Shown here: positions 1-64,000 of the stretch, in pieces
Layout of the letters: every line of letters begins with the position of its first letter
Position numbering within the stretch: the first letter of the stretch is position 1
NCBI RefSeq assembly: GCF_024713975.1
Contig: NC_091102.1
Span: 26,437,864-26,501,863, forward strand
Direction: 5' to 3'
Origin: Paralichthys olivaceus
Lineage: Eukaryota > Chordata > Actinopteri > Pleuronectiformes > Paralichthyidae
DNA: 64,000 nucleotides
The notes under the pieces: model-generated
Database searches by the model: none
What the model saw: the letters and a program-made list of their open reading frames with translations, nothing else
Told to the model about the DNA's origin: nothing
Program-made: the position numbers and the translations under genes

Positions 1-26
1 AGAGAAACCATTCTTAAAAAAATAAA
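1..26 (+). terminator. Poly(A) signal of the gene copy lying upstream of the window
   Basis: AATAAA at 21-26 is the same signal that ends every other copy, so it belongs to a copy whose body lies left of the window. It shows that the array began before position 1. Confidence 0.75.
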
Positions 27-366
27 GACATTTGAAATTGAATCAATCATCTCTTGTTTCTTCCTCAATACACCCTGGTGTTCATTTTGTAAGTCATGGT
101 TCCATATAGAGTCAAATATATGATGTGTATATGATGTGATTGAAAGCTAGTAATGTCCAATGGGTGCAGGTCGAGGAGGGCATGCAGTGTCCTCGAGCTC
201 TCAGTCAGGCTCCACCCCTCGCTCCTACTAATGTGGTCACTTCTGATTTTAAAAAACGAGATGTTTTTTCAGACTTTCATTCTTCACATTTTAGATTCAC
301 ATCTAAAAAGAAATGATTGTAGGGCTCATATCATGGAAAACTGTTTGTTTAATATCACATTTAACT
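27..366. other. Intergenic spacer between one copy's poly(A) site and the next copy's promoter
   Basis: In unit 1 this stretch contains the GT-rich region expected downstream of a cleavage site (about 52-93), an AT-rich part with the pair ATGATGTGTATATGATGTG (about 120-138), and a more GC-rich part (about 155-230). A 71-codon open frame at 153-368 has no codon signature or recognisable domain, and I do not treat it as a gene. The same spacer recurs in every unit with few changes: A/G near unit position 239, G/A in unit 14 near 35949 and G/A in unit 18 near 47008. I see no tRNA, promoter box or mobile-element end that I could defend here. Confidence 0.6.
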
Positions 367-462
367 GACAGTGTCTGTGATGTCCTATGTGACAGCTTCT
401 GTGATGTCACATGTGACAGTGTCTATGATGTCAAATGTGACAGTGTCTATGATGTCATATTT
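367..462 (+). repeat. Four 24-bp direct repeats upstream of the TATA-like box (candidate upstream regulatory array)
   Basis: Units at 367-390, 391-414, 415-438 and 439-462 share the pattern GACAG-TCT-TGATGTC-ATGT; a fifth begins GACTTTGATTG at 463. Each contains TGATGTC, and copies 2-4 contain TGATGTCA, one base away from the cAMP-response element TGACGTCA. The junctions read TGTGACAG, which includes the TGACAG core bound by MEIS/TGIF-type homeodomains. The block ends 62 bp before the TATA-like box, a natural place for an upstream activating element. All 24 units carry it at unit offset 367. Unit 1 has CCTATG where the others have CCCATG; units 8 and 10 have TGATGTCT in the fourth repeat (19741-19771 and 25261-25291). 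Binding is inference. Confidence 0.6.
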
Positions 463-524
463 GACTTTGATTGTTTAATGTAATTTATCTTTACTTCAAA
501 GCCATCACTACCAGGTTCAGTGCC

Positions 525-530
525 TATAAG
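525..530 (+). promoter_or_regulatory. TATA-like box of the repeated gene
   Basis: CCTATAAGAG surrounds TATAAG at 525-530, 140 bp before the proposed start codon at 665. A start site 25-31 bp downstream would give a 5' UTR of about 110 nt. The box is unchanged in all copies: 3285, 6045, 8805, 11565, 14314, 17074, 19834, 22594, 25354, 28114, 30874, 33634, 36394, 39154, 41914, 44674, 47434, 50194, 52954, 55714, 58474, 61234 and 63993 (first T). A second AT-rich run, CATATATAATA near 636-646, is too close to the start codon to serve the same transcript. Confidence 0.55.
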
Positions 531-548
531 AGTTATGGAGGAGACCTT

Positions 549-644
549 ATGAGCACAACAGCTCCAAAACTAGACCACAGATCCACAAATCTTCGATACA
601 CGAGACCGTCAGAAGACAGTATATACTTCAGTACACATATATAA
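549..644 (+). other. Possible short upstream open frame (31 codons) in the 5' leader
   Basis: ATG at 549-551 opens a frame that stops at TAA 642-644, 20 bp before the proposed main ATG. Its start context is weak (C at -3, A at +4). It lies 24 bp after the first T of the TATA-like box, so depending on the exact cap site it may or may not be in the mRNA. It is conserved in the copies I checked, but so is nearly every base of the unit. If transcribed it could lower translation of the main frame. Treat as possible only. Confidence 0.25.
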
Positions 645-664
645 TACCCCTATATTTGGCCAAC

Positions 665-2684
665 ATGCCAAAGAACAAGTCAGGAAGGGTAAGGTTTCTA
701 AGCAGGACACATCGACGATTTTATTTTATTTTTCCAATGTTTGTCTCAAACTCAAAAATATTTTTTCTGTGAGGGGATGGACTTTAAATGAACCCATCAC
801 ATTGGTGCTAATGCTAGAATGCTAGCAGTAGCATACTAGTGATTTTTTTAAATTTGTGTGTGCACTGCGTGGTGAAATCTCTCGCAAGTCACGTAATTAA
901 ACGTAAACGTAATTGTTGACAATAATAATAAATATTGTAGTTAATTAGTTATATCATTAGCTATATATTGTTTGTTTTTCATTTAATCAATAATCGTGTA
1001 AATCCTGAAACCGTGACATTTCCTCTGGCTCTGCGCCAAAATTTCATATCGTGACATCCATAGTATGTAGAGACTGTATTTAACAGAATTGAAGAAACTG
1101 TATTTAAATGTACTGGTGGTTAAATCAATGATTTGTTGGTCTGGTTCATCAACATTTAATTCAAAGTGAGTGTGGGACTGTGTTTTTAACTGTTATATGT
1201 TTGTTCGTGTCTTTCAGGTGCCAGACCACGAGAAATTGTTTGAGGACCTCCTTGAGGAAAAGCAGAATTTGGATTCTAAGAATATGCATCTGGCTCATGA
1301 AAATGCCAGTCTGAAGATCGCCATGTCCTGCAAAGAAGCTTCATGGAAAAAGGAAAAGGAGAGCATGCAGAATGCAGATTATGAAAAACTCAAGGAAGAA
1401 CTACAGCTCGACCTTAAGGATGCCAAGAAAGAGTTGAGGCTCCAAGAGAAGGACTACAGGTCCTTGAGTACTCGTTGTCAAAGCCAGCAGGCAGAGATCC
1501 ACAAGATCAGACGTGACCTCAAGCAAAGGTGCAACCACGTCAATGAGCTGGAGTACTCCATTAAACAGAGGGAACAGGTGATCGACAGGACAGTGCATGA
1601 GAAAATGGCACTGGAAGAGGAAATCAATGAGCTCACAACCAAGCTCAAAGCTATGGGGACAAAAGTTCTCCAGAACGAGCCTGACTGGCAGTCAGAAATC
1701 AAGGCTCTGAAGCACGAGCTCAGCCGTGAGCAGGCAGAGAAGGAGGCTGGCTCCAGTAGAATCAAGGAGCTGGAGAGACAGCTCAAGGTCACAGAAGAGA
1801 AGTGGGTGACCAAACATGAGGCCAGAATTGTCCAAACGGATCAGCTGATCAACAGTCTCACCAGTCAAAATAAGGCACTGGAAGCCAGCAACAAGAAACT
1901 CCTGTCCATGCAGCAAGCCATGGAGGCAAGGATCCTCCAGAACAAGACTGAGTGGGAGACTAAAGTTAACACTCTGGAGGACCATCTCAGTAGTGAGCGG
2001 GTGGAGAAGGAGGCTGGCTCCAATCGAATCAAGGAGCTGGAGAGACAGCTCAAGGTCACAGAAGAGAAGTGGGTGACCAAACGTGAGGCCAGAATTGTCT
2101 ATACGGATCAGGTGATCAACAGTCTCAGCAGTCAGAATATGGCACTGGAAGCCAGCAACCAGAGGCTCATCTCCGTGCAGCAAGCCATCGAGGCAAGGAT
2201 CCTCCAGAACAAGACTGAGTGGGAGACGAAAGTTAACACTCTGGAGGACCATCTCAGTAGTGAGCAGGCTGAGAAGGAGGCTGGCTTCACAAAAATCAAG
2301 GAGCTGGAGAAACTGGTCAGCAATACTGAGCAGATGTGGGCGGCCAAGCATGAGGCAGACATACTAAAGCTGCTCATTCTGAAACAGATCAAGCTTCAGG
2401 TAAGTCACATCAGCTCTGTTTGATCTGAATAAGAACTTGTTGCACTTTAAGTTTGTTTCTTATTCAGACTTTTGAAAGAGAAAATATCTAAACACTTGTC
2501 GTCTCTGTCTTTTCAGGAACTGGCCTTGATGACCGATAAGGACAAGGCAAGGATTCAAAAGGAGCAAAAGAAAGCAAAGAAAGAGGCAGAGAAGAGGCAA
2601 AAGAAGGAGCTGCAAGAGAAGAAGAGGCAGGAGCAGAGAGACAAACTAGACAGAGAGAAGGAGGAGAAGCGGCAAAGGAAATGA
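665..2684 (+). CDS. Copy 1: predicted 457-residue repeated coiled-coil protein, three coding exons
   Basis: Exons join 665-688, 1218-2399 and 2517-2684. Exon 1 encodes MPKNKSGR; its ATG has A at -3 and it ends AGG|GTAAGG. Exon 2 starts after CTTTCAG and ends CAG|GTAAGT. Exon 3 starts after CTTTTCAG and ends at TGA. All junctions are phase 0, and the frame is open only as joined. The protein is rich in Lys, Glu, Gln and Leu with no signal peptide or membrane segment, and heptad-like spacing runs through most of residues 12-400. Residues 158-246, 247-335 and 336-402 are three 89-residue modules, the last incomplete. The C-terminal 55 residues are almost all Lys/Glu/Arg/Gln and may form a single charged helix or a nuclear signal. 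Alleles here are Lys75, Trp165, His174, Arg297. The fold suggests a scaffold or filament-like protein; I do not recognise the family, and similarity searches on such sequence tend to hit golgins or trichohyalin by composition alone. Confidence 0.75.
689..1217 (+). other. Intron 1 (529 bp), representative copy
   Basis: Donor GTAAGG at 689-694 and acceptor CTTTCAG at 1211-1217. A branch-point-like TTTTTAAC lies about 30 bp before the acceptor. The body holds a GCTAATGCTAG-type patch with a small hairpin (ATGCTA 819-824 pairing with TAGCAT 829-834), an AT-rich stretch with ACAATA 919-924 facing TATTGT 933-938, and two CGTGACAT motifs at 1012-1019 and 1050-1057 that might be remnants of a DNA-transposon end. 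I see no coding exon inside it. An ATG at 1170 is in frame with exon 2 and would add 16 residues if transcription began in the intron. Confidence 0.7.
1665..2399 (+). repeat. 267-bp tandem repeats inside exon 2 (89-residue protein modules)
   Basis: Module 1 is 1665-1931, module 2 is 1932-2198 and module 3 is 2199-2399 (truncated by the intron 2 donor). Each module opens (V/I)LQN-x3-W, followed by EKEAG and IKELE; modules 1 and 2 continue through TDQ-x-INSL and end with QQA-x-EAR. Modules 1 and 2 are nearly identical in places at the DNA level, while module 3 diverges after the IKELE part. Every full gene copy in the array has the same three modules; I saw no copy with a gained or lost module. 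Confidence 0.93.
2400..2516 (+). other. Intron 2 (117 bp) with a second plausible acceptor
   Basis: Donor GTAAGT at 2400-2405 and main acceptor CTTTTCAG ending at 2516. A second acceptor, TTTCTTATTCAG, ends at 2467 and has an equally good pyrimidine run. Using it would add TFERENI and then a stop (TAA at 2489-2491), removing the charged 55-residue tail. The main acceptor is preferred because only it keeps the long exon 3 frame. Confidence 0.7.
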
Positions 2685-2692
2685 AGAAAATA

Positions 2693-2753
2693 TTTACATT
2701 TAGGGCATTTAGCAGATGCTTTTGTCCAAAGCAACTTACAATAAGTACATTTG
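2693..2753. mobile_element. V-SINE-like core fragment forming the 3' UTR
   Basis: The stretch contains TTTGTCCAAAGCAACTTACA, closely matching the conserved central core found in V-SINE family retroposons and related fish elements (consensus from memory: TTTATCCAAAGCGACTTACA), preceded by the typical ACATTTAGGGCATTTAGCAG. I see no tRNA- or 5S-derived head, so only a fragment is present. It starts 8 bp after the stop codon and ends 27 bp before AATAAA. It recurs at 5453, 8213, 10973, 13722, 16482, 19242, 22002, 24762, 27522, 30282, 33042, 35802, 38562, 41322, 44082, 46842, 49602, 52362, 55122, 57882, 60642 and 63401. The orientation relative to the source element is not assigned. Confidence 0.7.
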
Positions 2754-2780
2754 TCACAAGAGAGAAACCATTCTTAAAAA

Positions 2781-2786
2781 AATAAA
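2781..2786 (+). terminator. AATAAA polyadenylation signal of copy 1
   Basis: It lies 97 bp after the stop codon at 2684, and a T/GT-rich stretch follows (about 2812-2853), as expected for a cleavage site near 2800. Equivalent signals start at 5541, 8301, 11061, 13810, 16570, 19330, 22090, 24850, 27610, 30370, 33130, 35890, 38650, 41410, 44170, 46930, 49690, 52450, 55210, 57970, 60730 and 63489. The run of A before AATAAA may be a remnant of a retroposon tail. Confidence 0.75.
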
Positions 2787-11704: not shown

Positions 11705-13713
11705 ATGCCAAAGAACAAGTCAGGAAGGGTAAGGTTTCTAAGCAGGACACATCGACGATTTTATTTTATTTTTCCAATGTTTGTCTCAAACTCAAAAATA
11801 TTTTTTCTGTGAGGGGATGAACCCATCACATTGGTGCTAATGCTAGAATGCTAGCAGTAGCATACTAGTGATTTTTTTAAATTTGTGTGTGCACTGCGTG
11901 GTGAAATCTCTCGCAAGTCACGTAATTAAACGTAAACGTAATTGTTGACAATAATAATAAATATTGTAGTTAATTAGTTATATCATTAGCTATATATTGT
12001 TTGTTTTTCATTTGATCAATAATCGTGTAAATCCTGAAACCGTGACATTTCCTCTGGCTCTGCGCCAAAATTTCATATCGTGACATCCATAGTATGTAGA
12101 GACTGTATTTAACAGAATTGAAGAAACTGTATTTAAATGTACTGGTGGTTAAATCAATGATTTGTTGGTCTGGTTCATCAACATTTAATTCAAAGTGAGT
12201 GTGGGACTGTGTTTTTAACTGTTATATGTTTGTTCGTGTCTTTCAGGTGCCAGACCACGAGAAATTGTTTGAGGACCTCCTTGAGGAAAAGCAGAATTTG
12301 GATTCTAAGAATATGCATCTGGCTCATGAAAATGCCAGTCTGAAGATCGCCATGTCCTGCAAAGAAGCTTCATGGAAAAAGGAAAAGGAGAGCATGCAGA
12401 AAGCAGATTATGAAAAACTCAAGGAAGAACTACAGCTCGACCTTCAGGATGCCAAGAAAGAGTTGAGGCTCCAAGAGAAGGACTACAGGTCCTTGAGTAC
12501 TCGTTGTCAAAGCCAGCAGGCAGAGATCCACAAGATCAGACGTGACCTCAAGCAAAGGTGCAACCACGTCAATGAGCTGGAGTACTCCATTAAACAGAGG
12601 GAACAGGTGATCGACAGGACAGTGCATGAGAAAATGGCACTGGAAGAGGAAATCAATGAGCTCACAACCAAGCTCAAAGCTATGGGGACAAAAGTTCTCC
12701 AGAACGAGCCTGACTGGCAGTCAGAAATCAAGGCTCTGAAGCACGAGCTCAGCCGTGAGCAGGCAGAGAAGGAGGCTGGCTCCAGTAGAATCAAGGAGCT
12801 GGAGAGACAGCTCAAGGTCACAGAAGAGAAGTGGGTGACCAAACATGAGGCCAGAATTGTCCAAACGGATCAGCTGATCAACAGTCTCACCAGTCAAAAT
12901 AAGGCACTGGAAGCCAGCAACAAGAAACTCCTGTCCATGCAGCAAGCCATGGAGGCAAGGATCCTCCAGAACAAGACTGAGTGGGAGACTAAAGTTAACA
13001 CTCTGGAGGACCATCTCAGTAGTGAGCGGGTGGAGAAGGAGGCTGGCTCCAATCGAATCAAGGAGCTGGAGAGACAGCTCAAGGTCACAGAAGAGAAGTG
13101 GGTGACCAAACGTGAGGCCAGAATTGTCTATACGGATCAGGTGATCAACAGTCTCAGCAGTCAGAATATGGCACTGGAAGCCAGCAACCAGAGGCTCATC
13201 TCCGTGCAGCAAGCCATCGAGGCAAGGATCCTCCAGAACAAGACTGAGTGGGAGACGAAAGTTAACACTCTGGAGGACCATCTCAGTAGTGAGCAGGCTG
13301 AGAAGGAGGCTGGCTTCACAAAAATCAAGGAGCTGGAGAAACTGGTCAGCAATACTGAGCAGATGTGGGCGGCCAAGCATGAGGCAGACATACTAAAGCT
13401 GCTCATTCTGAAACAGATCAAGCTTCAGGTAAGTCACATCAGCTCTGTTTGATCTGAATAAGAACTTGTTGCACTTTAAGTTTGTTTCTTATTCAGACTT
13501 TCGAAAGAGAAAATATCTAAACACTTGTCGTCTCTGTCTTTTCAGGAACTGGCCTTGATGACCGATAAGGACAAGGCAAGGATTCAAAAGGAGCAAAAGA
13601 AAGCAAAGAAAGAGGCAGAGAAGAGGCAAAAGAAGGAGCTGCAAGAGAAGAAGAGGCAGGAGCAGAGAGACAAACTAGACAGAGAGAAGGAGGAGAAGCG
13701 GCAAAGGAAATGA
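11705..13713 (+). CDS. Copy 5: coiled-coil protein, Gln75/Lys60 type, short intron 1
   Basis: Exons 11705-11728, 12247-13428 and 13546-13713. Intron 1 is 518 bp because 11 bp are missing at about 11819. The private change Asn60 to Lys (AAA) sits in the first coiled-coil region; Gln75 and Arg297 are as in copies 3 and 13. Splice sites and frame are unaffected by the deletion. Confidence 0.74.
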
Positions 13714-44073: not shown

Positions 44074-44813
44074 AGAAAATATTTACATTTAGGGCATTTA
44101 GCAGATGCTTTTGTCCAAAGCAACTTACAATAAGTACATTTGTCACAAGAGAGAAACCATTCTTAAAAAAATAAAGACATTTGAAATTGAATCAATCATC
44201 TCTTGTTTCTTCCTCAATACACCCTGGTGTTCATTTTGTAAGTCATGGTTCCATATAGAGTCAAATATATGATGTGTATATGATGTGATTGAAAGCTAGT
44301 AATGTCCAATGGGTGCAGGTCGAGGAGGGCATGCAGTGTCCTCGAGCTCTCAGTCAGGCTCCACCCCTCGCTCCTACTAATGTGGTCACTTCTGATTTTA
44401 AAAAACGAGATGTATTTTCAGACTTTCATTCTTCACATTTTAGATTCACATCTAAAAAGAAATGATTGTAGGGCTCATATCATGGAAAACTGTTTGTTTA
44501 ATATCACATTTAACTGACAGTGTCTGTGATGTCCCATGTGACAGCTTCTGTGATGTCACATGTGACAGTGTCTATGATGTCAAATGTGACAGTGTCTATG
44601 ATGTCATATTTGACTTTGATTGTTTAATGTAATTTATCTTTACTTCAAAGCCATCACTACCAGGTTCAGTGCCTATAAGAGTTATGGAGGAGACCTTATG
44701 AGCACAACAGCTCCAAAACTAGACCACAGATCCACAAATCTTCGATACACGAGACCGTCAGAAGACAGTATATACTTCAGTACACATATATAATACCCCT
44801 ATATTTGGCCAAC

Positions 44814-46833: not shown

Positions 46834-47573
46834 AGAAAATATTTACATTTAGGGCATTTAGCAGATGCTTTTGTCCAAAGCAACTTACAATAAGTACATT
46901 TGTCACAAGAGAGAAACCATTCTTAAAAAAATAAAGACATTTGAAATTGAATCAATCATCTCTTGTTTCTTCCTCAATACACCCTGGTGTTCATTTTGTA
47001 AGTCATGATTCCATATAGAGTCAAATATATGATGTGTATATGATGTGATTGAAAGCTAGTAATGTCCAATGGGTGCAGGTCGAGGAGGGCATGCAGTGTC
47101 CTCGAGCTCTCAGTCAGGCTCCACCCCTCGCTCCTACTAATGTGGTCACTTCTGATTTTAAAAAACGAGATGTATTTTCAGACTTTCATTCTTCACATTT
47201 TAGATTCACATCTAAAAAGAAATGATTGTAGGGCTCATATCATGGAAAACTGTTTGTTTAATATCACATTTAACTGACAGTGTCTGTGATGTCCCATGTG
47301 ACAGCTTCTGTGATGTCACATGTGACAGTGTCTATGATGTCAAATGTGACAGTGTCTATGATGTCATATTTGACTTTGATTGTTTAATGTAATTTATCTT
47401 TACTTCAAAGCCATCACTACCAGGTTCAGTGCCTATAAGAGTTATGGAGGAGACCTTATGAGCACAACAGCTCCAAAACTAGACCACAGATCCACAAATC
47501 TTCGATACACGAGACCGTCAGAAGACAGTATATACTTCAGTACACATATATAATACCCCTATATTTGGCCAAC

Positions 47574-49593
47574 ATGCCAAAGAACAAGTCAGGAAGGGTA
47601 AGGTTTCTAAGCAGGACACATCGACGATTTTATTTTATTTTTCCAATGTTTGTCTCAAACTCAAAAATATTTTTTCTGTGAGGGGATGGACTTTAAATGA
47701 ACCCATCACATTGGTGCTAATGCTAGAATGCTAGCAGTAGCATACTAGTGATTTTTTTTAATTTGTGTGTGCACTGCGTGGTGAAATCTCTCGCAAGTCA
47801 CGTAATTAAACGTAAACGGAATTGTTGACAATAATAATAAATATTGTAGTTAATTAGTTATATCATTAGCTATATATTGTTTGTTTTTCATTTAATCAAT
47901 AATCGTGTAAATCCTGAAACCGTGACATTTCCTCTGGCTCTGCGCCAAAATTTCATATCGTGACATCCATAGTATGTAGAGACTGTATTTAACAGAATTG
48001 AAGAAACTGTATTTAAATGTACTGGTGGTTAAATCAATGATTTGTTGGTCTGGTTCATCAACATTTAATTCAAAGTGAGTGTGGGACTGTGTTTTTAACT
48101 GTTATATGTTTGTTCGTGTCTTTCAGGTGCCAGACCACGAGAAATTGTTTGAGGACCTCCTTGAGGAAAAGCAGAATTTGGATTCTAAGAATATGCATCT
48201 GGCTCATGAAAATGCCAGTCTGAAGATCGCCATGTCCTGCAAAGAAGCTTCATGGAAAAAGGAAAAGGAGAGCATGCAGAATGCAGATTATGAAAAACTC
48301 AAGGAAGAACTACAGCTCGACCTTAAGGATGCCAAGAAAGAGTTGAGGCTCCAAGAGAAGGACTACAGGTCCTTGAGTACTCGTTGTCAAAGCCAGCAGG
48401 CAGAGATCCACAAGATCAGACGTGACCTCAAGCAAAGGTGCAACCACGTCAATGAGCTGGAGTACTCCATTAAACAGAGGGAACAGGTGATCGACAGGAC
48501 AGTGCATGAGAAAATGGCACTGGAAGAGGAAATCAATGAGCTCACAACCAAGCTCAAAGCTATGGGGACAAAAGTTCTCCAGAACGAGCCTGACTGCCAG
48601 TCAGAAATCAAGGCTCTGAAGCGCGAGCTCAGCCGTGAGCAGGCAGAGAAGGAGGCTGGCTCCAGTAGAATCAAGGAGCTGGAGAGACAGCTCAAGGTCA
48701 CAGAAGAGAAGTGGGTGACCAAACATGAGGCCAGAATTGTCCAAACGGATCAGCTGATCAACAGTCTCACCAGTCAAAATAAGGCACTGGAAGCCAGCAA
48801 CAAGAAACTCCTGTCCATGCAGCAAGCCATGGAGGCAAGGATCCTCCAGAACAAGACTGAGTGGGAGACTAAAGTTAACACTCTGGAGGACCATCTCAGT
48901 AGTGAGCGGGTGGAGAAGGAGGCTGGCTCCAATCGAATCAAGGAGCTGGAGAGACAGCTCAAGGTCACAGAAGAGAAGTGGGTGACCAAACGTGAGGCCA
49001 GAATTGTCTATACGGATCAGGTGATCAACAGTCTCAGCAGTCAGAATATGGCACTGGAAGCCAGCAACCAGAGGCTCATCTCCGTGCAGCAAGCCATCGA
49101 GGCAAGGATCCTCCAGAACAAGACTGAGTGGGAGACGAAAGTTAACACTCTGGAGGACCATCTCAGTAGTGAGCAGGCTGAGAAGGAGGCTGGCTTCACA
49201 AAAATCAAGGAGCTGGAGAAACTGGTCAGCAATACTGAGCAGATGTGGGCGGCCAAGCATGAGGCAGACATACTAAAGCTGCTCATTCTGAAACAGATCA
49301 AGCTTCAGGTAAGTCACATCAGCTCTGTTTGATCTGAATAAGAACTTGTTGCACTTTAAGTTTGTTTCTTATTCAGACTTTCGAAAGAGAAAATATCTAA
49401 ACACTTGTCGTCTCTGTCTTTTCAGGAACTGGCCTTGATGACCGATAAGGACAAGGCAAGGATTCAAAAGGAGCAAAAGAAAGCAAAGAAAGAGGCAGAG
49501 AAGAGGCAAAAGAAGGAGCTGCAAGAGAAGAAGAGGCAGGAGCAGAGAGACAAACTAGACAGAGAGAAGGAGGAGAAGCGGCAAAGGAAATGA
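47574..49593 (+). CDS. Copy 18: coiled-coil protein, Cys165/Arg174/Arg297 type
   Basis: Exons 47574-47597, 48127-49308 and 49426-49593. Protein as copy 15. The one private base is A (GTCATGATTCC) in the spacer near 47008. Confidence 0.74.
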
Positions 49594-50333
49594 AGAAAAT
49601 ATTTACATTTAGGGCATTTAGCAGATGCTTTTGTCCAAAGCAACTTACAATAAGTACATTTGTCACAAGAGAGAAACCATTCTTAAAAAAATAAAGACAT
49701 TTGAAATTGAATCAATCATCTCTTGTTTCTTCCTCAATACACCCTGGTGTTCATTTTGTAAGTCATGGTTCCATATAGAGTCAAATATATGATGTGTATA
49801 TGATGTGATTGAAAGCTAGTAATGTCCAATGGGTGCAGGTCGAGGAGGGCATGCAGTGTCCTCGAGCTCTCAGTCAGGCTCCACCCCTCGCTCCTACTAA
49901 TGTGGTCACTTCTGATTTTAAAAAACGAGATGTATTTTCAGACTTTCATTCTTCACATTTTAGATTCACATCTAAAAAGAAATGATTGTAGGGCTCATAT
50001 CATGGAAAACTGTTTGTTTAATATCACATTTAACTGACAGTGTCTGTGATGTCCCATGTGACAGCTTCTGTGATGTCACATGTGACAGTGTCTATGATGT
50101 CAAATGTGACAGTGTCTATGATGTCATATTTGACTTTGATTGTTTAATGTAATTTATCTTTACTTCAAAGCCATCACTACCAGGTTCAGTGCCTATAAGA
50201 GTTATGGAGGAGACCTTATGAGCACAACAGCTCCAAAACTAGACCACAGATCCACAAATCTTCGATACACGAGACCGTCAGAAGACAGTATATACTTCAG
50301 TACACATATATAATACCCCTATATTTGGCCAAC

Positions 50334-52353
50334 ATGCCAAAGAACAAGTCAGGAAGGGTAAGGTTTCTAAGCAGGACACATCGACGATTTTATTTTATTT
50401 TTCCAATGTTTGTCTCAAACTCAAAAATATTTTTTCTGTGAGGGGATGGACTTTAAATGAACCCATCACATTGGTGCTAATGCTAGAATGCTAGCAGTAG
50501 CATACTAGTGATTTTTTTTAATTTGTGTGTGCACTGCGTGGTGAAATCTCTCGCAAGTCACGTAATTAAACGTAAACGGAATTGTTGACAATAATAATAA
50601 ATATTGTAGTTAATTAGTTATATCATTAGCTATATATTGTTTGTTTTTCATTTAATCAATAATCGTGTAAATCCTGAAACCGTGACATTTCCTCTGGCTC
50701 TGCGCCAAAATTTCATATCGTGACATCCATAGTATGTAGAGACTGTATTTAACAGAATTGAAGAAACTGTATTTAAATGTACTGGTGGTTAAATCAATGA
50801 TTTGTTGGTCTGGTTCATCAACATTTAATTCAAAGTGAGTGTGGGACTGTGTTTTTAACTGTTATATGTTTGTTCGTGTCTTTCAGGTGCCAGACCACGA
50901 GAAATTGTTTGAGGACCTCCTTGAGGAAAAGCAGAATTTGGATTCTAAGAATATGCATCTGGCTCATGAAAATGCCAGTCTGAAGATCGCCATGTCCTGC
51001 AAAGAAGCTTCATGGAAAAAGGAAAAGGAGAGCATGCAGAATGCAGATTATGAAAAACTCAAGGAAGAACTACAGCTCGACCTTAAGGATGCCAAGAAAG
51101 AGTTGAGGCTCCAAGAGAAGGACTACAGGTCCTTGAGTACTCGTTGTCAAAGCCAGCAGGCAGAGATCCACAAGATCAGACGTGACCTCAAGCAAAGGTG
51201 CAACCACGTCAATGAGCTGGAGTACTCCATTAAACAGAGGGAACAGGTGATCGACAGGACAGTGCATGAGAAAATGGCACTGGAAGAGGAAATCAATGAG
51301 CTCACAACCAAGCTCAAAGCTATGGGGACAAAAGTTCTCCAGAACGAGCCTGACTGCCAGTCAGAAATCAAGGCTCTGAAGCGCGAGCTCAGCCGTGAGC
51401 AGGCAGAGAAGGAGGCTGGCTCCAGTAGAATCAAGGAGCTGGAGAGACAGCTCAAGGTCACAGAAGAGAAGTGGGTGACCAAACATGAGGCCAGAATTGT
51501 CCAAACGGATCAGCTGATCAACAGTCTCACCAGTCAAAATAAGGCACTGGAAGCCAGCAACAAGAAACTCCTGTCCATGCAGCAAGCCATGGAGGCAAGG
51601 ATCCTCCAGAACAAGACTGAGTGGGAGACTAAAGTTAACACTCTGGAGGACCATCTCAGTAGTGAGCGGGTGGAGAAGGAGGCTGGCTCCAATCGAATCA
51701 AGGAGCTGGAGAGACAGCTCAAGGTCACAGAAGAGAAGTGGGTGACCAAACGTGAGGCCAGAATTGTCTATACGGATCAGGTGATCAACAGTCTCAGCAG
51801 TCAGAATATGGCACTGGAAGCCAGCAACCAGAGGCTCATCTCCGTGCAGCAAGCCATCGAGGCAAGGATCCTCCAGAACAAGACTGAGTGGGAGACGAAA
51901 GTTAACACTCTGGAGGACCATCTCAGTAGTGAGCAGGCTGAGAAGGAGGCTGGCTTCACAAAAATCAAGGAGCTGGAGAAACTGGTCAGCAATACTGAGC
52001 AGATGTGGGCGGCCAAGCATGAGGCAGACATACTAAAGCTGCTCATTCTGAAACAGATCAAGCTTCAGGTAAGTCACATCAGCTCTGTTTGATCTGAATA
52101 AGAACTTGTTGCACTTTAAGTTTGTTTCTTATTCAGACTTTCGAAAGAGAAAATATCTAAACACTTGTCGTCTCTGTCTTTTCAGGAACTGGCCTTGATG
52201 ACCGATAAGGACAAGGCAAGGATTCAAAAGGAGCAAAAGAAAGCAAAGAAAGAGGCAGAGAAGAGGCAAAAGAAGGAGCTGCAAGAGAAGAAGAGGCAGG
52301 AGCAGAGAGACAAACTAGACAGAGAGAAGGAGGAGAAGCGGCAAAGGAAATGA
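50334..52353 (+). CDS. Copy 19: coiled-coil protein, Cys165/Arg174/Arg297 type
   Basis: Exons 50334-50357, 50887-52068 and 52186-52353. Protein as copy 15; first of four consecutive units (19-22) that look identical base for base. Confidence 0.74.
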
Positions 52354-53093
52354 AGAAAATATTTACATTTAGGGCATTTAGCAGATGCTTTTGTCCAAAG
52401 CAACTTACAATAAGTACATTTGTCACAAGAGAGAAACCATTCTTAAAAAAATAAAGACATTTGAAATTGAATCAATCATCTCTTGTTTCTTCCTCAATAC
52501 ACCCTGGTGTTCATTTTGTAAGTCATGGTTCCATATAGAGTCAAATATATGATGTGTATATGATGTGATTGAAAGCTAGTAATGTCCAATGGGTGCAGGT
52601 CGAGGAGGGCATGCAGTGTCCTCGAGCTCTCAGTCAGGCTCCACCCCTCGCTCCTACTAATGTGGTCACTTCTGATTTTAAAAAACGAGATGTATTTTCA
52701 GACTTTCATTCTTCACATTTTAGATTCACATCTAAAAAGAAATGATTGTAGGGCTCATATCATGGAAAACTGTTTGTTTAATATCACATTTAACTGACAG
52801 TGTCTGTGATGTCCCATGTGACAGCTTCTGTGATGTCACATGTGACAGTGTCTATGATGTCAAATGTGACAGTGTCTATGATGTCATATTTGACTTTGAT
52901 TGTTTAATGTAATTTATCTTTACTTCAAAGCCATCACTACCAGGTTCAGTGCCTATAAGAGTTATGGAGGAGACCTTATGAGCACAACAGCTCCAAAACT
53001 AGACCACAGATCCACAAATCTTCGATACACGAGACCGTCAGAAGACAGTATATACTTCAGTACACATATATAATACCCCTATATTTGGCCAAC

Positions 53094-55113
53094 ATGCCAA
53101 AGAACAAGTCAGGAAGGGTAAGGTTTCTAAGCAGGACACATCGACGATTTTATTTTATTTTTCCAATGTTTGTCTCAAACTCAAAAATATTTTTTCTGTG
53201 AGGGGATGGACTTTAAATGAACCCATCACATTGGTGCTAATGCTAGAATGCTAGCAGTAGCATACTAGTGATTTTTTTTAATTTGTGTGTGCACTGCGTG
53301 GTGAAATCTCTCGCAAGTCACGTAATTAAACGTAAACGGAATTGTTGACAATAATAATAAATATTGTAGTTAATTAGTTATATCATTAGCTATATATTGT
53401 TTGTTTTTCATTTAATCAATAATCGTGTAAATCCTGAAACCGTGACATTTCCTCTGGCTCTGCGCCAAAATTTCATATCGTGACATCCATAGTATGTAGA
53501 GACTGTATTTAACAGAATTGAAGAAACTGTATTTAAATGTACTGGTGGTTAAATCAATGATTTGTTGGTCTGGTTCATCAACATTTAATTCAAAGTGAGT
53601 GTGGGACTGTGTTTTTAACTGTTATATGTTTGTTCGTGTCTTTCAGGTGCCAGACCACGAGAAATTGTTTGAGGACCTCCTTGAGGAAAAGCAGAATTTG
53701 GATTCTAAGAATATGCATCTGGCTCATGAAAATGCCAGTCTGAAGATCGCCATGTCCTGCAAAGAAGCTTCATGGAAAAAGGAAAAGGAGAGCATGCAGA
53801 ATGCAGATTATGAAAAACTCAAGGAAGAACTACAGCTCGACCTTAAGGATGCCAAGAAAGAGTTGAGGCTCCAAGAGAAGGACTACAGGTCCTTGAGTAC
53901 TCGTTGTCAAAGCCAGCAGGCAGAGATCCACAAGATCAGACGTGACCTCAAGCAAAGGTGCAACCACGTCAATGAGCTGGAGTACTCCATTAAACAGAGG
54001 GAACAGGTGATCGACAGGACAGTGCATGAGAAAATGGCACTGGAAGAGGAAATCAATGAGCTCACAACCAAGCTCAAAGCTATGGGGACAAAAGTTCTCC
54101 AGAACGAGCCTGACTGCCAGTCAGAAATCAAGGCTCTGAAGCGCGAGCTCAGCCGTGAGCAGGCAGAGAAGGAGGCTGGCTCCAGTAGAATCAAGGAGCT
54201 GGAGAGACAGCTCAAGGTCACAGAAGAGAAGTGGGTGACCAAACATGAGGCCAGAATTGTCCAAACGGATCAGCTGATCAACAGTCTCACCAGTCAAAAT
54301 AAGGCACTGGAAGCCAGCAACAAGAAACTCCTGTCCATGCAGCAAGCCATGGAGGCAAGGATCCTCCAGAACAAGACTGAGTGGGAGACTAAAGTTAACA
54401 CTCTGGAGGACCATCTCAGTAGTGAGCGGGTGGAGAAGGAGGCTGGCTCCAATCGAATCAAGGAGCTGGAGAGACAGCTCAAGGTCACAGAAGAGAAGTG
54501 GGTGACCAAACGTGAGGCCAGAATTGTCTATACGGATCAGGTGATCAACAGTCTCAGCAGTCAGAATATGGCACTGGAAGCCAGCAACCAGAGGCTCATC
54601 TCCGTGCAGCAAGCCATCGAGGCAAGGATCCTCCAGAACAAGACTGAGTGGGAGACGAAAGTTAACACTCTGGAGGACCATCTCAGTAGTGAGCAGGCTG
54701 AGAAGGAGGCTGGCTTCACAAAAATCAAGGAGCTGGAGAAACTGGTCAGCAATACTGAGCAGATGTGGGCGGCCAAGCATGAGGCAGACATACTAAAGCT
54801 GCTCATTCTGAAACAGATCAAGCTTCAGGTAAGTCACATCAGCTCTGTTTGATCTGAATAAGAACTTGTTGCACTTTAAGTTTGTTTCTTATTCAGACTT
54901 TCGAAAGAGAAAATATCTAAACACTTGTCGTCTCTGTCTTTTCAGGAACTGGCCTTGATGACCGATAAGGACAAGGCAAGGATTCAAAAGGAGCAAAAGA
55001 AAGCAAAGAAAGAGGCAGAGAAGAGGCAAAAGAAGGAGCTGCAAGAGAAGAAGAGGCAGGAGCAGAGAGACAAACTAGACAGAGAGAAGGAGGAGAAGCG
55101 GCAAAGGAAATGA
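53094..55113 (+). CDS. Copy 20: coiled-coil protein, Cys165/Arg174/Arg297 type
   Basis: Exons 53094-53117, 53647-54828 and 54946-55113. No difference from copy 19 seen. Confidence 0.74.
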
Positions 55114-55853
55114 AGAAAATATTTACATTTAGGGCATTTAGCAGATGCTTTTGTCCAAAGCAACTTACAATAAGTACATTTGTCACAAGAGAGAAACCAT
55201 TCTTAAAAAAATAAAGACATTTGAAATTGAATCAATCATCTCTTGTTTCTTCCTCAATACACCCTGGTGTTCATTTTGTAAGTCATGGTTCCATATAGAG
55301 TCAAATATATGATGTGTATATGATGTGATTGAAAGCTAGTAATGTCCAATGGGTGCAGGTCGAGGAGGGCATGCAGTGTCCTCGAGCTCTCAGTCAGGCT
55401 CCACCCCTCGCTCCTACTAATGTGGTCACTTCTGATTTTAAAAAACGAGATGTATTTTCAGACTTTCATTCTTCACATTTTAGATTCACATCTAAAAAGA
55501 AATGATTGTAGGGCTCATATCATGGAAAACTGTTTGTTTAATATCACATTTAACTGACAGTGTCTGTGATGTCCCATGTGACAGCTTCTGTGATGTCACA
55601 TGTGACAGTGTCTATGATGTCAAATGTGACAGTGTCTATGATGTCATATTTGACTTTGATTGTTTAATGTAATTTATCTTTACTTCAAAGCCATCACTAC
55701 CAGGTTCAGTGCCTATAAGAGTTATGGAGGAGACCTTATGAGCACAACAGCTCCAAAACTAGACCACAGATCCACAAATCTTCGATACACGAGACCGTCA
55801 GAAGACAGTATATACTTCAGTACACATATATAATACCCCTATATTTGGCCAAC

Positions 55854-57873
55854 ATGCCAAAGAACAAGTCAGGAAGGGTAAGGTTTCTAAGCAGGACACA
55901 TCGACGATTTTATTTTATTTTTCCAATGTTTGTCTCAAACTCAAAAATATTTTTTCTGTGAGGGGATGGACTTTAAATGAACCCATCACATTGGTGCTAA
56001 TGCTAGAATGCTAGCAGTAGCATACTAGTGATTTTTTTTAATTTGTGTGTGCACTGCGTGGTGAAATCTCTCGCAAGTCACGTAATTAAACGTAAACGGA
56101 ATTGTTGACAATAATAATAAATATTGTAGTTAATTAGTTATATCATTAGCTATATATTGTTTGTTTTTCATTTAATCAATAATCGTGTAAATCCTGAAAC
56201 CGTGACATTTCCTCTGGCTCTGCGCCAAAATTTCATATCGTGACATCCATAGTATGTAGAGACTGTATTTAACAGAATTGAAGAAACTGTATTTAAATGT
56301 ACTGGTGGTTAAATCAATGATTTGTTGGTCTGGTTCATCAACATTTAATTCAAAGTGAGTGTGGGACTGTGTTTTTAACTGTTATATGTTTGTTCGTGTC
56401 TTTCAGGTGCCAGACCACGAGAAATTGTTTGAGGACCTCCTTGAGGAAAAGCAGAATTTGGATTCTAAGAATATGCATCTGGCTCATGAAAATGCCAGTC
56501 TGAAGATCGCCATGTCCTGCAAAGAAGCTTCATGGAAAAAGGAAAAGGAGAGCATGCAGAATGCAGATTATGAAAAACTCAAGGAAGAACTACAGCTCGA
56601 CCTTAAGGATGCCAAGAAAGAGTTGAGGCTCCAAGAGAAGGACTACAGGTCCTTGAGTACTCGTTGTCAAAGCCAGCAGGCAGAGATCCACAAGATCAGA
56701 CGTGACCTCAAGCAAAGGTGCAACCACGTCAATGAGCTGGAGTACTCCATTAAACAGAGGGAACAGGTGATCGACAGGACAGTGCATGAGAAAATGGCAC
56801 TGGAAGAGGAAATCAATGAGCTCACAACCAAGCTCAAAGCTATGGGGACAAAAGTTCTCCAGAACGAGCCTGACTGCCAGTCAGAAATCAAGGCTCTGAA
56901 GCGCGAGCTCAGCCGTGAGCAGGCAGAGAAGGAGGCTGGCTCCAGTAGAATCAAGGAGCTGGAGAGACAGCTCAAGGTCACAGAAGAGAAGTGGGTGACC
57001 AAACATGAGGCCAGAATTGTCCAAACGGATCAGCTGATCAACAGTCTCACCAGTCAAAATAAGGCACTGGAAGCCAGCAACAAGAAACTCCTGTCCATGC
57101 AGCAAGCCATGGAGGCAAGGATCCTCCAGAACAAGACTGAGTGGGAGACTAAAGTTAACACTCTGGAGGACCATCTCAGTAGTGAGCGGGTGGAGAAGGA
57201 GGCTGGCTCCAATCGAATCAAGGAGCTGGAGAGACAGCTCAAGGTCACAGAAGAGAAGTGGGTGACCAAACGTGAGGCCAGAATTGTCTATACGGATCAG
57301 GTGATCAACAGTCTCAGCAGTCAGAATATGGCACTGGAAGCCAGCAACCAGAGGCTCATCTCCGTGCAGCAAGCCATCGAGGCAAGGATCCTCCAGAACA
57401 AGACTGAGTGGGAGACGAAAGTTAACACTCTGGAGGACCATCTCAGTAGTGAGCAGGCTGAGAAGGAGGCTGGCTTCACAAAAATCAAGGAGCTGGAGAA
57501 ACTGGTCAGCAATACTGAGCAGATGTGGGCGGCCAAGCATGAGGCAGACATACTAAAGCTGCTCATTCTGAAACAGATCAAGCTTCAGGTAAGTCACATC
57601 AGCTCTGTTTGATCTGAATAAGAACTTGTTGCACTTTAAGTTTGTTTCTTATTCAGACTTTCGAAAGAGAAAATATCTAAACACTTGTCGTCTCTGTCTT
57701 TTCAGGAACTGGCCTTGATGACCGATAAGGACAAGGCAAGGATTCAAAAGGAGCAAAAGAAAGCAAAGAAAGAGGCAGAGAAGAGGCAAAAGAAGGAGCT
57801 GCAAGAGAAGAAGAGGCAGGAGCAGAGAGACAAACTAGACAGAGAGAAGGAGGAGAAGCGGCAAAGGAAATGA
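55854..57873 (+). CDS. Copy 21: coiled-coil protein, Cys165/Arg174/Arg297 type
   Basis: Exons 55854-55877, 56407-57588 and 57706-57873. No difference from copy 19 seen. Confidence 0.74.
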
Positions 57874-58613
57874 AGAAAATATTTACATTTAGGGCATTTA
57901 GCAGATGCTTTTGTCCAAAGCAACTTACAATAAGTACATTTGTCACAAGAGAGAAACCATTCTTAAAAAAATAAAGACATTTGAAATTGAATCAATCATC
58001 TCTTGTTTCTTCCTCAATACACCCTGGTGTTCATTTTGTAAGTCATGGTTCCATATAGAGTCAAATATATGATGTGTATATGATGTGATTGAAAGCTAGT
58101 AATGTCCAATGGGTGCAGGTCGAGGAGGGCATGCAGTGTCCTCGAGCTCTCAGTCAGGCTCCACCCCTCGCTCCTACTAATGTGGTCACTTCTGATTTTA
58201 AAAAACGAGATGTATTTTCAGACTTTCATTCTTCACATTTTAGATTCACATCTAAAAAGAAATGATTGTAGGGCTCATATCATGGAAAACTGTTTGTTTA
58301 ATATCACATTTAACTGACAGTGTCTGTGATGTCCCATGTGACAGCTTCTGTGATGTCACATGTGACAGTGTCTATGATGTCAAATGTGACAGTGTCTATG
58401 ATGTCATATTTGACTTTGATTGTTTAATGTAATTTATCTTTACTTCAAAGCCATCACTACCAGGTTCAGTGCCTATAAGAGTTATGGAGGAGACCTTATG
58501 AGCACAACAGCTCCAAAACTAGACCACAGATCCACAAATCTTCGATACACGAGACCGTCAGAAGACAGTATATACTTCAGTACACATATATAATACCCCT
58601 ATATTTGGCCAAC

Positions 58614-60633
58614 ATGCCAAAGAACAAGTCAGGAAGGGTAAGGTTTCTAAGCAGGACACATCGACGATTTTATTTTATTTTTCCAATGTTTGTCTCAAAC
58701 TCAAAAATATTTTTTCTGTGAGGGGATGGACTTTAAATGAACCCATCACATTGGTGCTAATGCTAGAATGCTAGCAGTAGCATACTAGTGATTTTTTTTA
58801 ATTTGTGTGTGCACTGCGTGGTGAAATCTCTCGCAAGTCACGTAATTAAACGTAAACGGAATTGTTGACAATAATAATAAATATTGTAGTTAATTAGTTA
58901 TATCATTAGCTATATATTGTTTGTTTTTCATTTAATCAATAATCGTGTAAATCCTGAAACCGTGACATTTCCTCTGGCTCTGCGCCAAAATTTCATATCG
59001 TGACATCCATAGTATGTAGAGACTGTATTTAACAGAATTGAAGAAACTGTATTTAAATGTACTGGTGGTTAAATCAATGATTTGTTGGTCTGGTTCATCA
59101 ACATTTAATTCAAAGTGAGTGTGGGACTGTGTTTTTAACTGTTATATGTTTGTTCGTGTCTTTCAGGTGCCAGACCACGAGAAATTGTTTGAGGACCTCC
59201 TTGAGGAAAAGCAGAATTTGGATTCTAAGAATATGCATCTGGCTCATGAAAATGCCAGTCTGAAGATCGCCATGTCCTGCAAAGAAGCTTCATGGAAAAA
59301 GGAAAAGGAGAGCATGCAGAATGCAGATTATGAAAAACTCAAGGAAGAACTACAGCTCGACCTTAAGGATGCCAAGAAAGAGTTGAGGCTCCAAGAGAAG
59401 GACTACAGGTCCTTGAGTACTCGTTGTCAAAGCCAGCAGGCAGAGATCCACAAGATCAGACGTGACCTCAAGCAAAGGTGCAACCACGTCAATGAGCTGG
59501 AGTACTCCATTAAACAGAGGGAACAGGTGATCGACAGGACAGTGCATGAGAAAATGGCACTGGAAGAGGAAATCAATGAGCTCACAACCAAGCTCAAAGC
59601 TATGGGGACAAAAGTTCTCCAGAACGAGCCTGACTGCCAGTCAGAAATCAAGGCTCTGAAGCGCGAGCTCAGCCGTGAGCAGGCAGAGAAGGAGGCTGGC
59701 TCCAGTAGAATCAAGGAGCTGGAGAGACAGCTCAAGGTCACAGAAGAGAAGTGGGTGACCAAACATGAGGCCAGAATTGTCCAAACGGATCAGCTGATCA
59801 ACAGTCTCACCAGTCAAAATAAGGCACTGGAAGCCAGCAACAAGAAACTCCTGTCCATGCAGCAAGCCATGGAGGCAAGGATCCTCCAGAACAAGACTGA
59901 GTGGGAGACTAAAGTTAACACTCTGGAGGACCATCTCAGTAGTGAGCGGGTGGAGAAGGAGGCTGGCTCCAATCGAATCAAGGAGCTGGAGAGACAGCTC
60001 AAGGTCACAGAAGAGAAGTGGGTGACCAAACGTGAGGCCAGAATTGTCTATACGGATCAGGTGATCAACAGTCTCAGCAGTCAGAATATGGCACTGGAAG
60101 CCAGCAACCAGAGGCTCATCTCCGTGCAGCAAGCCATCGAGGCAAGGATCCTCCAGAACAAGACTGAGTGGGAGACGAAAGTTAACACTCTGGAGGACCA
60201 TCTCAGTAGTGAGCAGGCTGAGAAGGAGGCTGGCTTCACAAAAATCAAGGAGCTGGAGAAACTGGTCAGCAATACTGAGCAGATGTGGGCGGCCAAGCAT
60301 GAGGCAGACATACTAAAGCTGCTCATTCTGAAACAGATCAAGCTTCAGGTAAGTCACATCAGCTCTGTTTGATCTGAATAAGAACTTGTTGCACTTTAAG
60401 TTTGTTTCTTATTCAGACTTTCGAAAGAGAAAATATCTAAACACTTGTCGTCTCTGTCTTTTCAGGAACTGGCCTTGATGACCGATAAGGACAAGGCAAG
60501 GATTCAAAAGGAGCAAAAGAAAGCAAAGAAAGAGGCAGAGAAGAGGCAAAAGAAGGAGCTGCAAGAGAAGAAGAGGCAGGAGCAGAGAGACAAACTAGAC
60601 AGAGAGAAGGAGGAGAAGCGGCAAAGGAAATGA
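58614..60633 (+). CDS. Copy 22: coiled-coil protein, Cys165/Arg174/Arg297 type
   Basis: Exons 58614-58637, 59167-60348 and 60466-60633. No difference from copy 19 seen. Last open copy in the window. Confidence 0.74.
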
Positions 60634-61373
60634 AGAAAATATTTACATTTAGGGCATTTAGCAGATGCTTTTGTCCAAAGCAACTTACAATAAGTACATT
60701 TGTCACAAGAGAGAAACCATTCTTAAAAAAATAAAGACATTTGAAATTGAATCAATCATCTCTTGTTTCTTCCTCAATACACCCTGGTGTTCATTTTGTA
60801 AGTCATGGTTCCATATAGAGTCAAATATATGATGTGTATATGATGTGATTGAAAGCTAGTAATGTCCAATGGGTGCAGGTCGAGGAGGGCATGCAGTGTC
60901 CTCGAGCTCTCAGTCAGGCTCCACCCCTCGCTCCTACTAATGTGGTCACTTCTGATTTTAAAAAACGAGATGTATTTTCAGACTTTCATTCTTCACATTT
61001 TAGATTCACATCTAAAAAGAAATGATTGTAGGGCTCATATCATGGAAAACTGTTTGTTTAATATCACATTTAACTGACAGTGTCTGTGATGTCCCATGTG
61101 ACAGCTTCTGTGATGTCACATGTGACAGTGTCTATGATGTCAAATGTGACAGTGTCTATGATGTCATATTTGACTTTGATTGTTTAATGTAATTTATCTT
61201 TACTTCAAAGCCATCACTACCAGGTTCAGTGCCTATAAGAGTTATGGAGGAGACCTTATGAGCACAACAGCTCCAAAACTAGACCACAGATCCACAAATC
61301 TTCGATACACGAGACCGTCAGAAGACAGTATATACTTCAGTACACATATATAATACCCCTATATTTGGCCAAC

Positions 61374-63392
61374 ATGCCAAAGAACAAGTCAGGAAGGGTA
61401 AGGTTTCTAAGCAGGACACATCGACGATTTTATTTTATTTTTCCAATGTTTGTCTCAAACTCAAAAATATTTTTTCTGTGAGGGGATGGACTTTAAATGA
61501 ACCCATCACATTGGTGCTAATGCTAGAATGCTAGCAGTAGCATACTAGTGATTTTTTTTAATTTGTGTGTGCACTGCGTGGTGAAATCTCTCGCAAGTCA
61601 CGTAATTAAACGTAAACGGAATTGTTGACAATAATAATAAATATTGTAGTTAATTAGTTATATCATTAGCTATATATTGTTTGTTTTTCATTTAATCAAT
61701 AATCGTGTAAATCCTGAAACCGTGACATTTCCTCTGGCTCTGCGCCAAAATTTCATATCGTGACATCCATAGTATGTAGAGACTGTATTTAACAGAATTG
61801 AAGAAACTGTATTTAAATGTACTGGTGGTTAAATCAATGATTTGTTGGTCTGGTTCATCAACATTTAATTCAAAGTGAGTGTGGGACTGTGTTTTTAACT
61901 GTTATATGTTTGTTCGTGTCTTTCAGGTGCCAGACCACGAGAAATTGTTTGAGGACCTCCTTGAGGAAAAGCAGAATTTGGATTCTAAGAATATGCATCT
62001 GGCTCATGAAAATGCCAGTCTGAAGATCGCCATGTCCTGCAAAGAAGCTTCATGGAAAAAGGAAAAGGAGAGCATGCAGAATGCAGATTATGAAAAACTC
62101 AAGGAAGAACTACAGCTCGACCTTAAGGATGCCAAGAAAGAGTTGAGGCTCCAAGAGAAGGACTACAGGTCCTTGAGTACTCGTTGTCAAAGCCAGCAGG
62201 CAGAGATCCACAAGATCAGACGTGACCTCAAGCAAAGGTGCAACCACGTCAATGAGCTGGAGTACTCCATTAAACAGAGGGAACAGGTGATCGACAGGAC
62301 AGTGCATGAGAAAATGGCACTGGAAGAGGAAATCAATGAGCTCACAACCAAGCTCAAAGCTATGGGACAAAAGTTCTCCAGAACGAGCCTGACTGCCAGT
62401 CAGAAATCAAGGCTCTGAAGCGCGAGCTCAGCCGTGAGCAGGCAGAGAAGGAGGCTGGCTCCAGTAGAATCAAGGAGCTGGAGAGACAGCTCAAGGTCAC
62501 AGAAGAGAAGTGGGTGACCAAACATGAGGCCAGAATTGTCCAAACGGATCAGCTGATCAACAGTCTCACCAGTCAAAATAAGGCACTGGAAGCCAGCAAC
62601 AAGAAACTCCTGTCCATGCAGCAAGCCATGGAGGCAAGGATCCTCCAGAACAAGACTGAGTGGGAGACTAAAGTTAACACTCTGGAGGACCATCTCAGTA
62701 GTGAGCGGGTGGAGAAGGAGGCTGGCTCCAATCGAATCAAGGAGCTGGAGAGACAGCTCAAGGTCACAGAAGAGAAGTGGGTGACCAAACGTGAGGCCAG
62801 AATTGTCTATACGGATCAGGTGATCAACAGTCTCAGCAGTCAGAATATGGCACTGGAAGCCAGCAACCAGAGGCTCATCTCCGTGCAGCAAGCCATCGAG
62901 GCAAGGATCCTCCAGAACAAGACTGAGTGGGAGACGAAAGTTAACACTCTGGAGGACCATCTCAGTAGTGAGCAGGCTGAGAAGGAGGCTGGCTTCACAA
63001 AAATCAAGGAGCTGGAGAAACTGGTCAGCAATACTGAGCAGATGTGGGCGGCCAAGCATGAGGCAGACATACTAAAGCTGCTCATTCTGAAACAGATCAA
63101 GCTTCAGGTAAGTCACATCAGCTCTGTTTGATCTGAATAAGAACTTGTTGCACTTTAAGTTTGTTTCTTATTCAGACTTTCGAAAGAGAAAATATCTAAA
63201 CACTTGTCGTCTCTGTCTTTTCAGGAACTGGCCTTGATGACCGATAAGGACAAGGCAAGGATTCAAAAGGAGCAAAAGAAAGCAAAGAAAGAGGCAGAGA
63301 AGAGGCAAAAGAAGGAGCTGCAAGAGAAGAAGAGGCAGGAGCAGAGAGACAAACTAGACAGAGAGAAGGAGGAGAAGCGGCAAAGGAAATGA
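61374..63392 (+). pseudogene. Copy 23: frameshifted coiled-coil gene (predicted 171-residue product)
   Basis: Exons would be 61374-61397, 61927-63107 and 63225-63392. The GGGG run in the Met154-Gly155 codons of all other copies is GGG here (62364-62366). After Gly155 the frame shifts, adds 16 unrelated residues and stops at 62416-62418, before most of the 89-residue modules. The stop lies far upstream of the last junction, so the mRNA would be a candidate for nonsense-mediated decay. Promoter, splice sites and poly(A) signal are intact, and the rest of the unit is of the Cys165/Arg174 group. A homopolymer miscall in the assembly would give the same picture. Confidence 0.75.
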
Positions 63393-63468
63393 AGAAAATA
63401 TTTACATTTAGGGCATTTAGCAGATGCTTTTGTCCAAAGCAACTTACAATAAGTACATTTGTCACAAG

Positions 63469-64000
63469 AGAGAAACCATTCTTAAAAAAATAAAGACATT
63501 TGAAATTGAATCAATCATCTCTTGTTTCTTCCTCAATACACCCTGGTGTTCATTTTGTAAGTCATGGTTCCATATAGAGTCAAATATATGATGTGTATAT
63601 GATGTGATTGAAAGCTAGTAATGTCCAATGGGTGCAGGTCGAGGAGGGCATGCAGTGTCCTCGAGCTCTCAGTCAGGCTCCACCCCTCGCTCCTACTAAT
63701 GTGGTCACTTCTGATTTTAAAAAACGAGATGTATTTTCAGACTTTCATTCTTCACATTTTAGATTCACATCTAAAAAGAAATGATTGTAGGGCTCATATC
63801 ATGGAAAACTGTTTGTTTAATATCACATTTAACTGACAGTGTCTGTGATGTCCCATGTGACAGCTTCTGTGATGTCACATGTGACAGTGTCTATGATGTC
63901 AAATGTGACAGTGTCTATGATGTCATATTTGACTTTGATTGTTTAATGTAATTTATCTTTACTTCAAAGCCATCACTACCAGGTTCAGTGCCTATAAGAG
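63469..64000 (+). repeat. Partial unit 24: spacer, 24-bp repeats and TATA-like box only
   Basis: The unit is cut by the window end 2 bp after its TATA-like box (63993-63998). It contains the poly(A) signal for copy 23 (63489-63494) and the four 24-bp repeats (63835-63930). Its coding part lies beyond the window. Confidence 0.95.

Follow-up and report, generated by a model that had tools for sequence, protein, structure and literature searches.

Macrosatellites with one gene in each repeat unit are best described in mammals. The coding frame of DUX4 is not known to be split by introns, the products of Slx, Slxl1 and Sly are coiled-coil proteins, and Slx and Sly are defined by the Cor1 domain. 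In human, the coding macrosatellites documented in the accessible part of one report are D4Z4/DUX4, USP17 and CT47 (PMC3599962). The D4Z4 unit measures 3.3 kb and carries one protein-coding gene, the CT47 unit measures 4.8 kb and its gene is normally restricted to the germ line, and USP17 is likewise a coding array (PMC3599962). In mouse, an available excerpt describes Slx, Slxl1 and Sly as Sycp3-like genes that are massively amplified and engaged in a copy-number conflict (PMC7743899), and a literature abstract attributes the Cor1 domain to SYCP3. A case from a non-mammalian vertebrate is the amplification of FAM118A in the great tit, for which the accessible text reports numerous copies, of which some may be functional while others carry a premature stop, together with an exon lying within a nested tandem repeat (PMC12786263). 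Tandemly arrayed genes make up about 14% of genes on average across 11 vertebrate genomes (PMC2547482), and other types of gene cluster are known in fish, for example ApoD (PMC6325677), in both cases as stated in the available portions of the papers.

The window that we analysed is a stretch of 64,000 nucleotides of flounder DNA (1..64000, forward strand), and its array is a fresh example of the coding macrosatellite type already known from the accessible part of the human literature (PMC3599962). It resembles D4Z4 in its unit size and in having one protein-coding gene per unit, CT47 in its gene-bearing units and USP17 in being a coding array. However, DUX4 is a homeobox gene, whereas the Pfam scan found no homeobox here, and introns interrupt the present coding frame. 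Unlike in CT47 and USP17, no domain of those genes appeared in the Pfam scan. High copy number is shared with Slx, Slxl1 and Sly, but the Pfam scan gave no Cor1 domain and the present array is built of a regular 2.76-kb tandem unit. The comparisons with DUX4 and Slx/Sly are analogies only. The FAM118A amplification, as far as the excerpt describes it, is of much greater size and belongs to a chromosome rearrangement, and its protein goes by a different name. Tandemly arrayed genes are neighbouring duplicates too, but here unit and spacer are regular, 99.76% identical and satellite-like. A fish-directed literature search returned no gene-per-unit macrosatellite among the matches listed, and no description of the present array was among the matches listed in the literature search, which is not proof of its being unpublished.

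Tandem array and gene model

The whole window is a single head-to-tail array of 23 full units of 2,760 bp, followed by 532 bp of a 24th. The autocorrelation peaked at a lag of 2760 (94.5% identical bases), with the next peaks at 5520 and 8280. An anchor search located 24 unit starts, the full units beginning at 1, 2761, 5521 and so on up to 60710. The autocorrelation and the anchor-based count bear out the original prediction of at least 23 tandem 2,760-bp copies. This number is a minimum, since the array continues beyond the window in both directions. Unit phase is arbitrary, and the first unit (u01, 1..2760, forward strand) serves as the reference. Twenty-one of the 23 full units are exactly 2,760 bp long. 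The two exceptions are u05 (2,749 bp), which according to the unit comparison has an 11-bp deletion in intron 1 (11816..11817), and u23 (2,759 bp), which has a 1-bp deletion in exon 2 (62363..62364, within a GGGG run, so that the exact base is ambiguous). The partial 24th unit at the end of the window is identical to the consensus. Among the 23 units the mean pairwise divergence is 0.244% (99.76% identity) and the maximum 0.47%, and 27 SNP columns define 18 distinct unit sequences. The array thus has the properties of a macrosatellite: its units follow one another head to tail, exceed 1 kb (2,760 bp), number at least 23 and diverge by 0.24%.

Each unit holds a three-exon gene model on the forward strand. 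In u01, the coding part of exon 1 comprises eight codons (665..688) and is followed by GTAAGG, exon 2 comprises 394 codons in phase 0 (1218..2399) and is followed by GTAAGT, and exon 3 comprises 55 codons and a TGA stop (2517..2684). The three coding exons join in phase 0 into a frame of 457 codons. The AATAAA signal that serves the u01 gene lies at 2781..2786, where it begins at position 21 of u02. Computed from the unit positions, the start codons of u01 to u12 are at 665, 3425, 6185, 8945, 11705, 14454, 17214, 19974, 22734, 25494, 28254 and 31014, and those of u13 to u23 are at 33774, 36534, 39294, 42054, 44814, 47574, 50334, 53094, 55854, 58614 and 61374. The ATG, both GT/AG pairs, the stop codon, a TATAAG box and the AATAAA are identical in 23/23 units. 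The full-length frame is open in 22 of the 23 copies, as had been predicted. The exception is u23, in which one G of the GGGG run is missing and the frame stops after 171 amino acids; this homopolymer indel may equally be a sequencing error. As in D4Z4, therefore, a complete protein-coding gene model with its signals is present in every one of the 23 units, with the frame open in all but one.

The length of the open frame in exon 2 is unusual. Its 394 open codons compare with a longest run of 275 and a mean of 120 in 1,000 dinucleotide shuffles over six frames. The other frames of exon 2 contain 11 and 29 stops in the forward and 4, 10 and 34 in the reverse direction. Base composition gives such an open frame a chance of 1.5e-9, which rises to about 9e-7 after removal of the internal repeats. 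An open frame by chance is very unlikely. Since the openness of exon 2 exceeds that of all shuffles, the ancestor of the unit was a real gene.

Predicted protein and flanking elements

The predicted product has 457 amino acids and a mass of 53.9 kDa and is rich in E, K, L and Q. Its tail, the product of exon 3, is very basic, with a net charge of +9 over 55 residues and a pI of about 10. Exon 2 contains an in-frame internal repeat of 267 bp (89 codons) in 2.4 copies (1668..2310, forward strand). The heptad contrast of the protein is 0.311 against a shuffle mean of 0.267, with 15 of 300 shuffles reaching the observed value, and it is strongest at about residues 65-165. Three other frames showed no heptad contrast (145, 67 and 77 of 200 shuffles reached the observed value). 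A windowed test of helical periodicity was not significant (67/500), and one wrong frame scored higher (16/200). Taken from the sequence, a coiled-coil character of the product is suggested.

Two Pfam scans gave three families only, DUF3584, ATG16 and GPR128_GAIN_subdom_B, all below the cut-off; the spliced protein alone gave DUF3584 and GPR128_GAIN_subdom_B, again below the cut-offs, and neither homeobox nor Cor1. The matches from a PDB sequence search with exon 2 were weak (E 0.019 to 0.087) and five in number, namely 'Protein A47' and four phage chains (tail-needle or head-completion). In viral contigs, eight pattern matches yielded no confirmed relative. The search for relatives spanned Pfam, PDB and viral contigs, so that the lack of a relative means little. 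A catfish lead annotated as 'golgin subfamily' proved to be Golgin B1, and the accessible part of the source held no link to the array.

The best candidate for a TATA box is TATAAG (525..530, forward strand), with a predicted transcription start near 555. The leader from about 555 to the ATG at 665 would be about 110 bases long and has no ATG of its own. A second motif, TATATAA (638..644, forward strand), lies 27 bp before the ATG, and transcription from it would therefore be expected to start at or beyond the ATG, so that it is probably too near to serve the 457-codon frame. Of the two TATA-like boxes, the one at 525 would be workable and the one at 638 probably not. Upstream of the promoter lies a 24-bp minisatellite of 4.2 copies (366..465, forward strand). 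It contains TGATGTCA, which we take to be a CRE-like site, at 402, 426 and 450, with a spacing of 24 bp. The first two sites are kept in 23/23 units and the third in 21/23 (it is lost in u08 and u10). As parts of one repeat, the three putative CRE-like sites amount to a single event.

In u01, the CpG observed/expected ratio is 0.30 upstream (1-664), 0.86 in intron 1 (689-1217) and 0.27 in exon 2 (1218-2399). The upstream value hints at prolonged germline methylation. Transitions of the CpG type account for six of the 27 SNPs, though the unit holds only 42 CpGs. Also in the upstream region, a sub-threshold SNORA16 match was found on the reverse strand (3019-3172; 22.8 bits against a curated 35), probably by chance.

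Downstream of the gene, each full unit carries the 3′ tail of a UnaL2-type LINE in antisense (RF00436; 2699..2752, reverse strand; full model, 58.3 bits against a curated 55). The match exceeds the curated score at the same place in 23/23 full units, is separated from the stop codon by 14 bases and has no SNP across its 54 bases in the 23 units. The flanking direct repeats are short, the longest being eight bases (2652 and 2759) and another seven bases (2695 and 2746, of which the latter lies within the match); there is therefore no clear target-site duplication. The insertion was considered as a source of the poly(A) signal, which is not supported, the AATAAA lying outside the 54-base match. 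Excerpts of the literature record UnaL2-like tails from eel and carp, and the conserved 3′ tail found here in each full unit is one that UnaL2-type L2 LINEs share with their SINE partners in fishes (PMC2653535). However, only the 54-base tail is recognised in the array, and it is not the gene of the array. Its presence is consistent with a fish origin.

Variation among units and selection

The units sort into haplotype classes, and u19-u22 are identical and consecutive. The block u14-u23 (35870..63468, forward strand) carries the W165C/H174R variant. The mean SNP difference is 0.67 among u15-u23 versus 7.0 among u01-u13. None of 5,000 reorderings made adjacent units as alike as they are here, although the effect is not significant for u01-u13 alone (634/5,000). 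All four combinations of alleles occur at 33 of the 91 informative site pairs, which requires exchange, conversion or recurrent mutation. At an offset of nine units, u02-u11, u03-u12 and u04-u13 differ by 4, 1 and 4 columns, while u01-u10 and u05-u14 fall outside this pattern (8 and 22 differing columns). The offset is a hint of a multi-unit duplication.

Twelve SNPs lie in coding sequence, nine nonsynonymous and three synonymous, where the synonymous share under neutrality would be 23% (binomial P 0.74); because the SNPs of linked copies are partly dependent, this and the other P values for selection are rough. SNP density is 12/1,374 in coding versus 15/1,386 in noncoding sequence (Fisher P 0.70). 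Three or fewer silent SNPs among 12 have a P of 0.016 at an omega of 0.2 and of 0.29 at an omega of 0.5. Strong purifying selection is rejected at omega 0.2, while moderate constraint (omega 0.5) is compatible with the data, and strong recent amino-acid constraint is absent. None of the 12 coding SNPs is a nonsense change, an outcome with a probability of 0.54 under no selection. Recent homogenisation is the main reason why the copies are open. The original prediction had described an amplified gene with a promoter per copy and had pointed to the 22 open frames of 23. The whole gene, a plausible promoter, the splice sites and the poly(A) signal stand, whereas the open frames fail as proof of maintained function in every copy, given the probability of 0.54 and the neutral ratio. 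Four coding variants occur in at least five copies each (K75Q, W165C, H174R and R297H), and all of them change the amino acid.

The internal repeats of exon 2 give a similar dN and dS for R1-R2 (0.148 and 0.152) and for R1-R3 (0.234 and 0.252), and values of 0.073 and 0.153 for R2-R3 (108 bp only). Positive selection in these repeats was considered, and a dN/dS near 1 fails to show it; relaxed constraint or fast evolution, either fits. The divergence between R1 and R2 is patchy, with 22 differences in the first 99 bases and one in the next 66, so that conversion between the internal repeats is likely. In the first 75 bases of R1/R2 (1668-2201), the amino acid is altered in 15 of 16 changed codons.

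Possible origin and use of the array

We are inclined to read the array as a coding macrosatellite, several copies of which may be used. Its protein would be fast-evolving, rich in K, E, L and Q and basic at its tail. A complete RNA polymerase II gene, promoter and poly(A) signal included, would have been caught inside the 2,760-bp unit, which would then have been multiplied and kept near-identical through unequal crossing over and gene conversion. Judging from the candidate promoter and the poly(A) signal, transcription would cover about 80% of each unit, and it may involve several copies. The 54-kDa product, with its basic tail, would probably be largely helical and perhaps partly coiled-coil. 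Copy number may set the dose of this fast-evolving structural or adaptor protein, which is probably used in a restricted tissue, for example the germ line. If the copies are active, dosage is their likeliest use. The coding macrosatellite is favoured by the open exon 2, the two phase-0 introns, the signals in 23/23 units, the homogenisation and the four-combination site pairs. It is weakened by the neutral ratio of nonsynonymous to synonymous SNPs, the near-equal SNP densities, the dN/dS near 1 of R1-R2, the low upstream CpG, the modest heptad signal and the non-significant periodicity test.

Several of these weaknesses suit the main rival, a silent and recently homogenised satellite, in which an intact ancestral copy of a former gene spread so recently that there was no time for decay. 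A neutral 9:3 ratio and near-equal coding and noncoding SNP densities would be expected of it, as would the scarcity of silent SNPs (P 0.016 at omega 0.2), and the CpG depletion upstream (0.30) and in exon 2 (0.27) and the frameshift in u23 point the same way. However, the intact 457-codon frame and the full set of signals indicate a gene until recently, and the 12 SNPs are compatible with moderate constraint (omega 0.5, P 0.29). We regard a silent satellite as possible but rather unlikely.

It is improbable, and argued here by analogy with Slx/Sly, that the array is a dosage-driven conflict family (driver or suppressor) located on a sex chromosome or in a drive-prone region. Amplification, near-identity and the R1-R2 dN/dS near 1 would suit such a fast-evolving protein, and the four variants present in at least five copies each all alter the amino acid. 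A dN/dS near 1 equally means relaxed constraint, however, and the Cor1 match is absent from the Pfam scan. There is a similarly slim chance that the protein is a fish-specific, fast-evolving coiled-coil protein in a dosage-mediated transmission conflict, with copy number setting the strength of the array as driver or suppressor; its lack of amino-acid constraint would then reflect an arms race, not decay. Least likely is an expansion of a few real copies by the assembler, to which the run of identical units u19-u22 and the 1-bp homopolymer indel of u23, possibly a residual read error, would lend themselves, but simple duplication error would not make the mosaic haplotypes and the unit-specific 11-bp deletion seen among 18 distinct sequences in 23 units; overcounting within u15-u23 is possible.

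The array offers a lesson for its class, in that open frames within a homogenised array say little on the function of each copy. As a clean and regular case, probably from a fish and with an unassigned protein, it may carry the questions of copy number, expression and conflict beyond the mammals.
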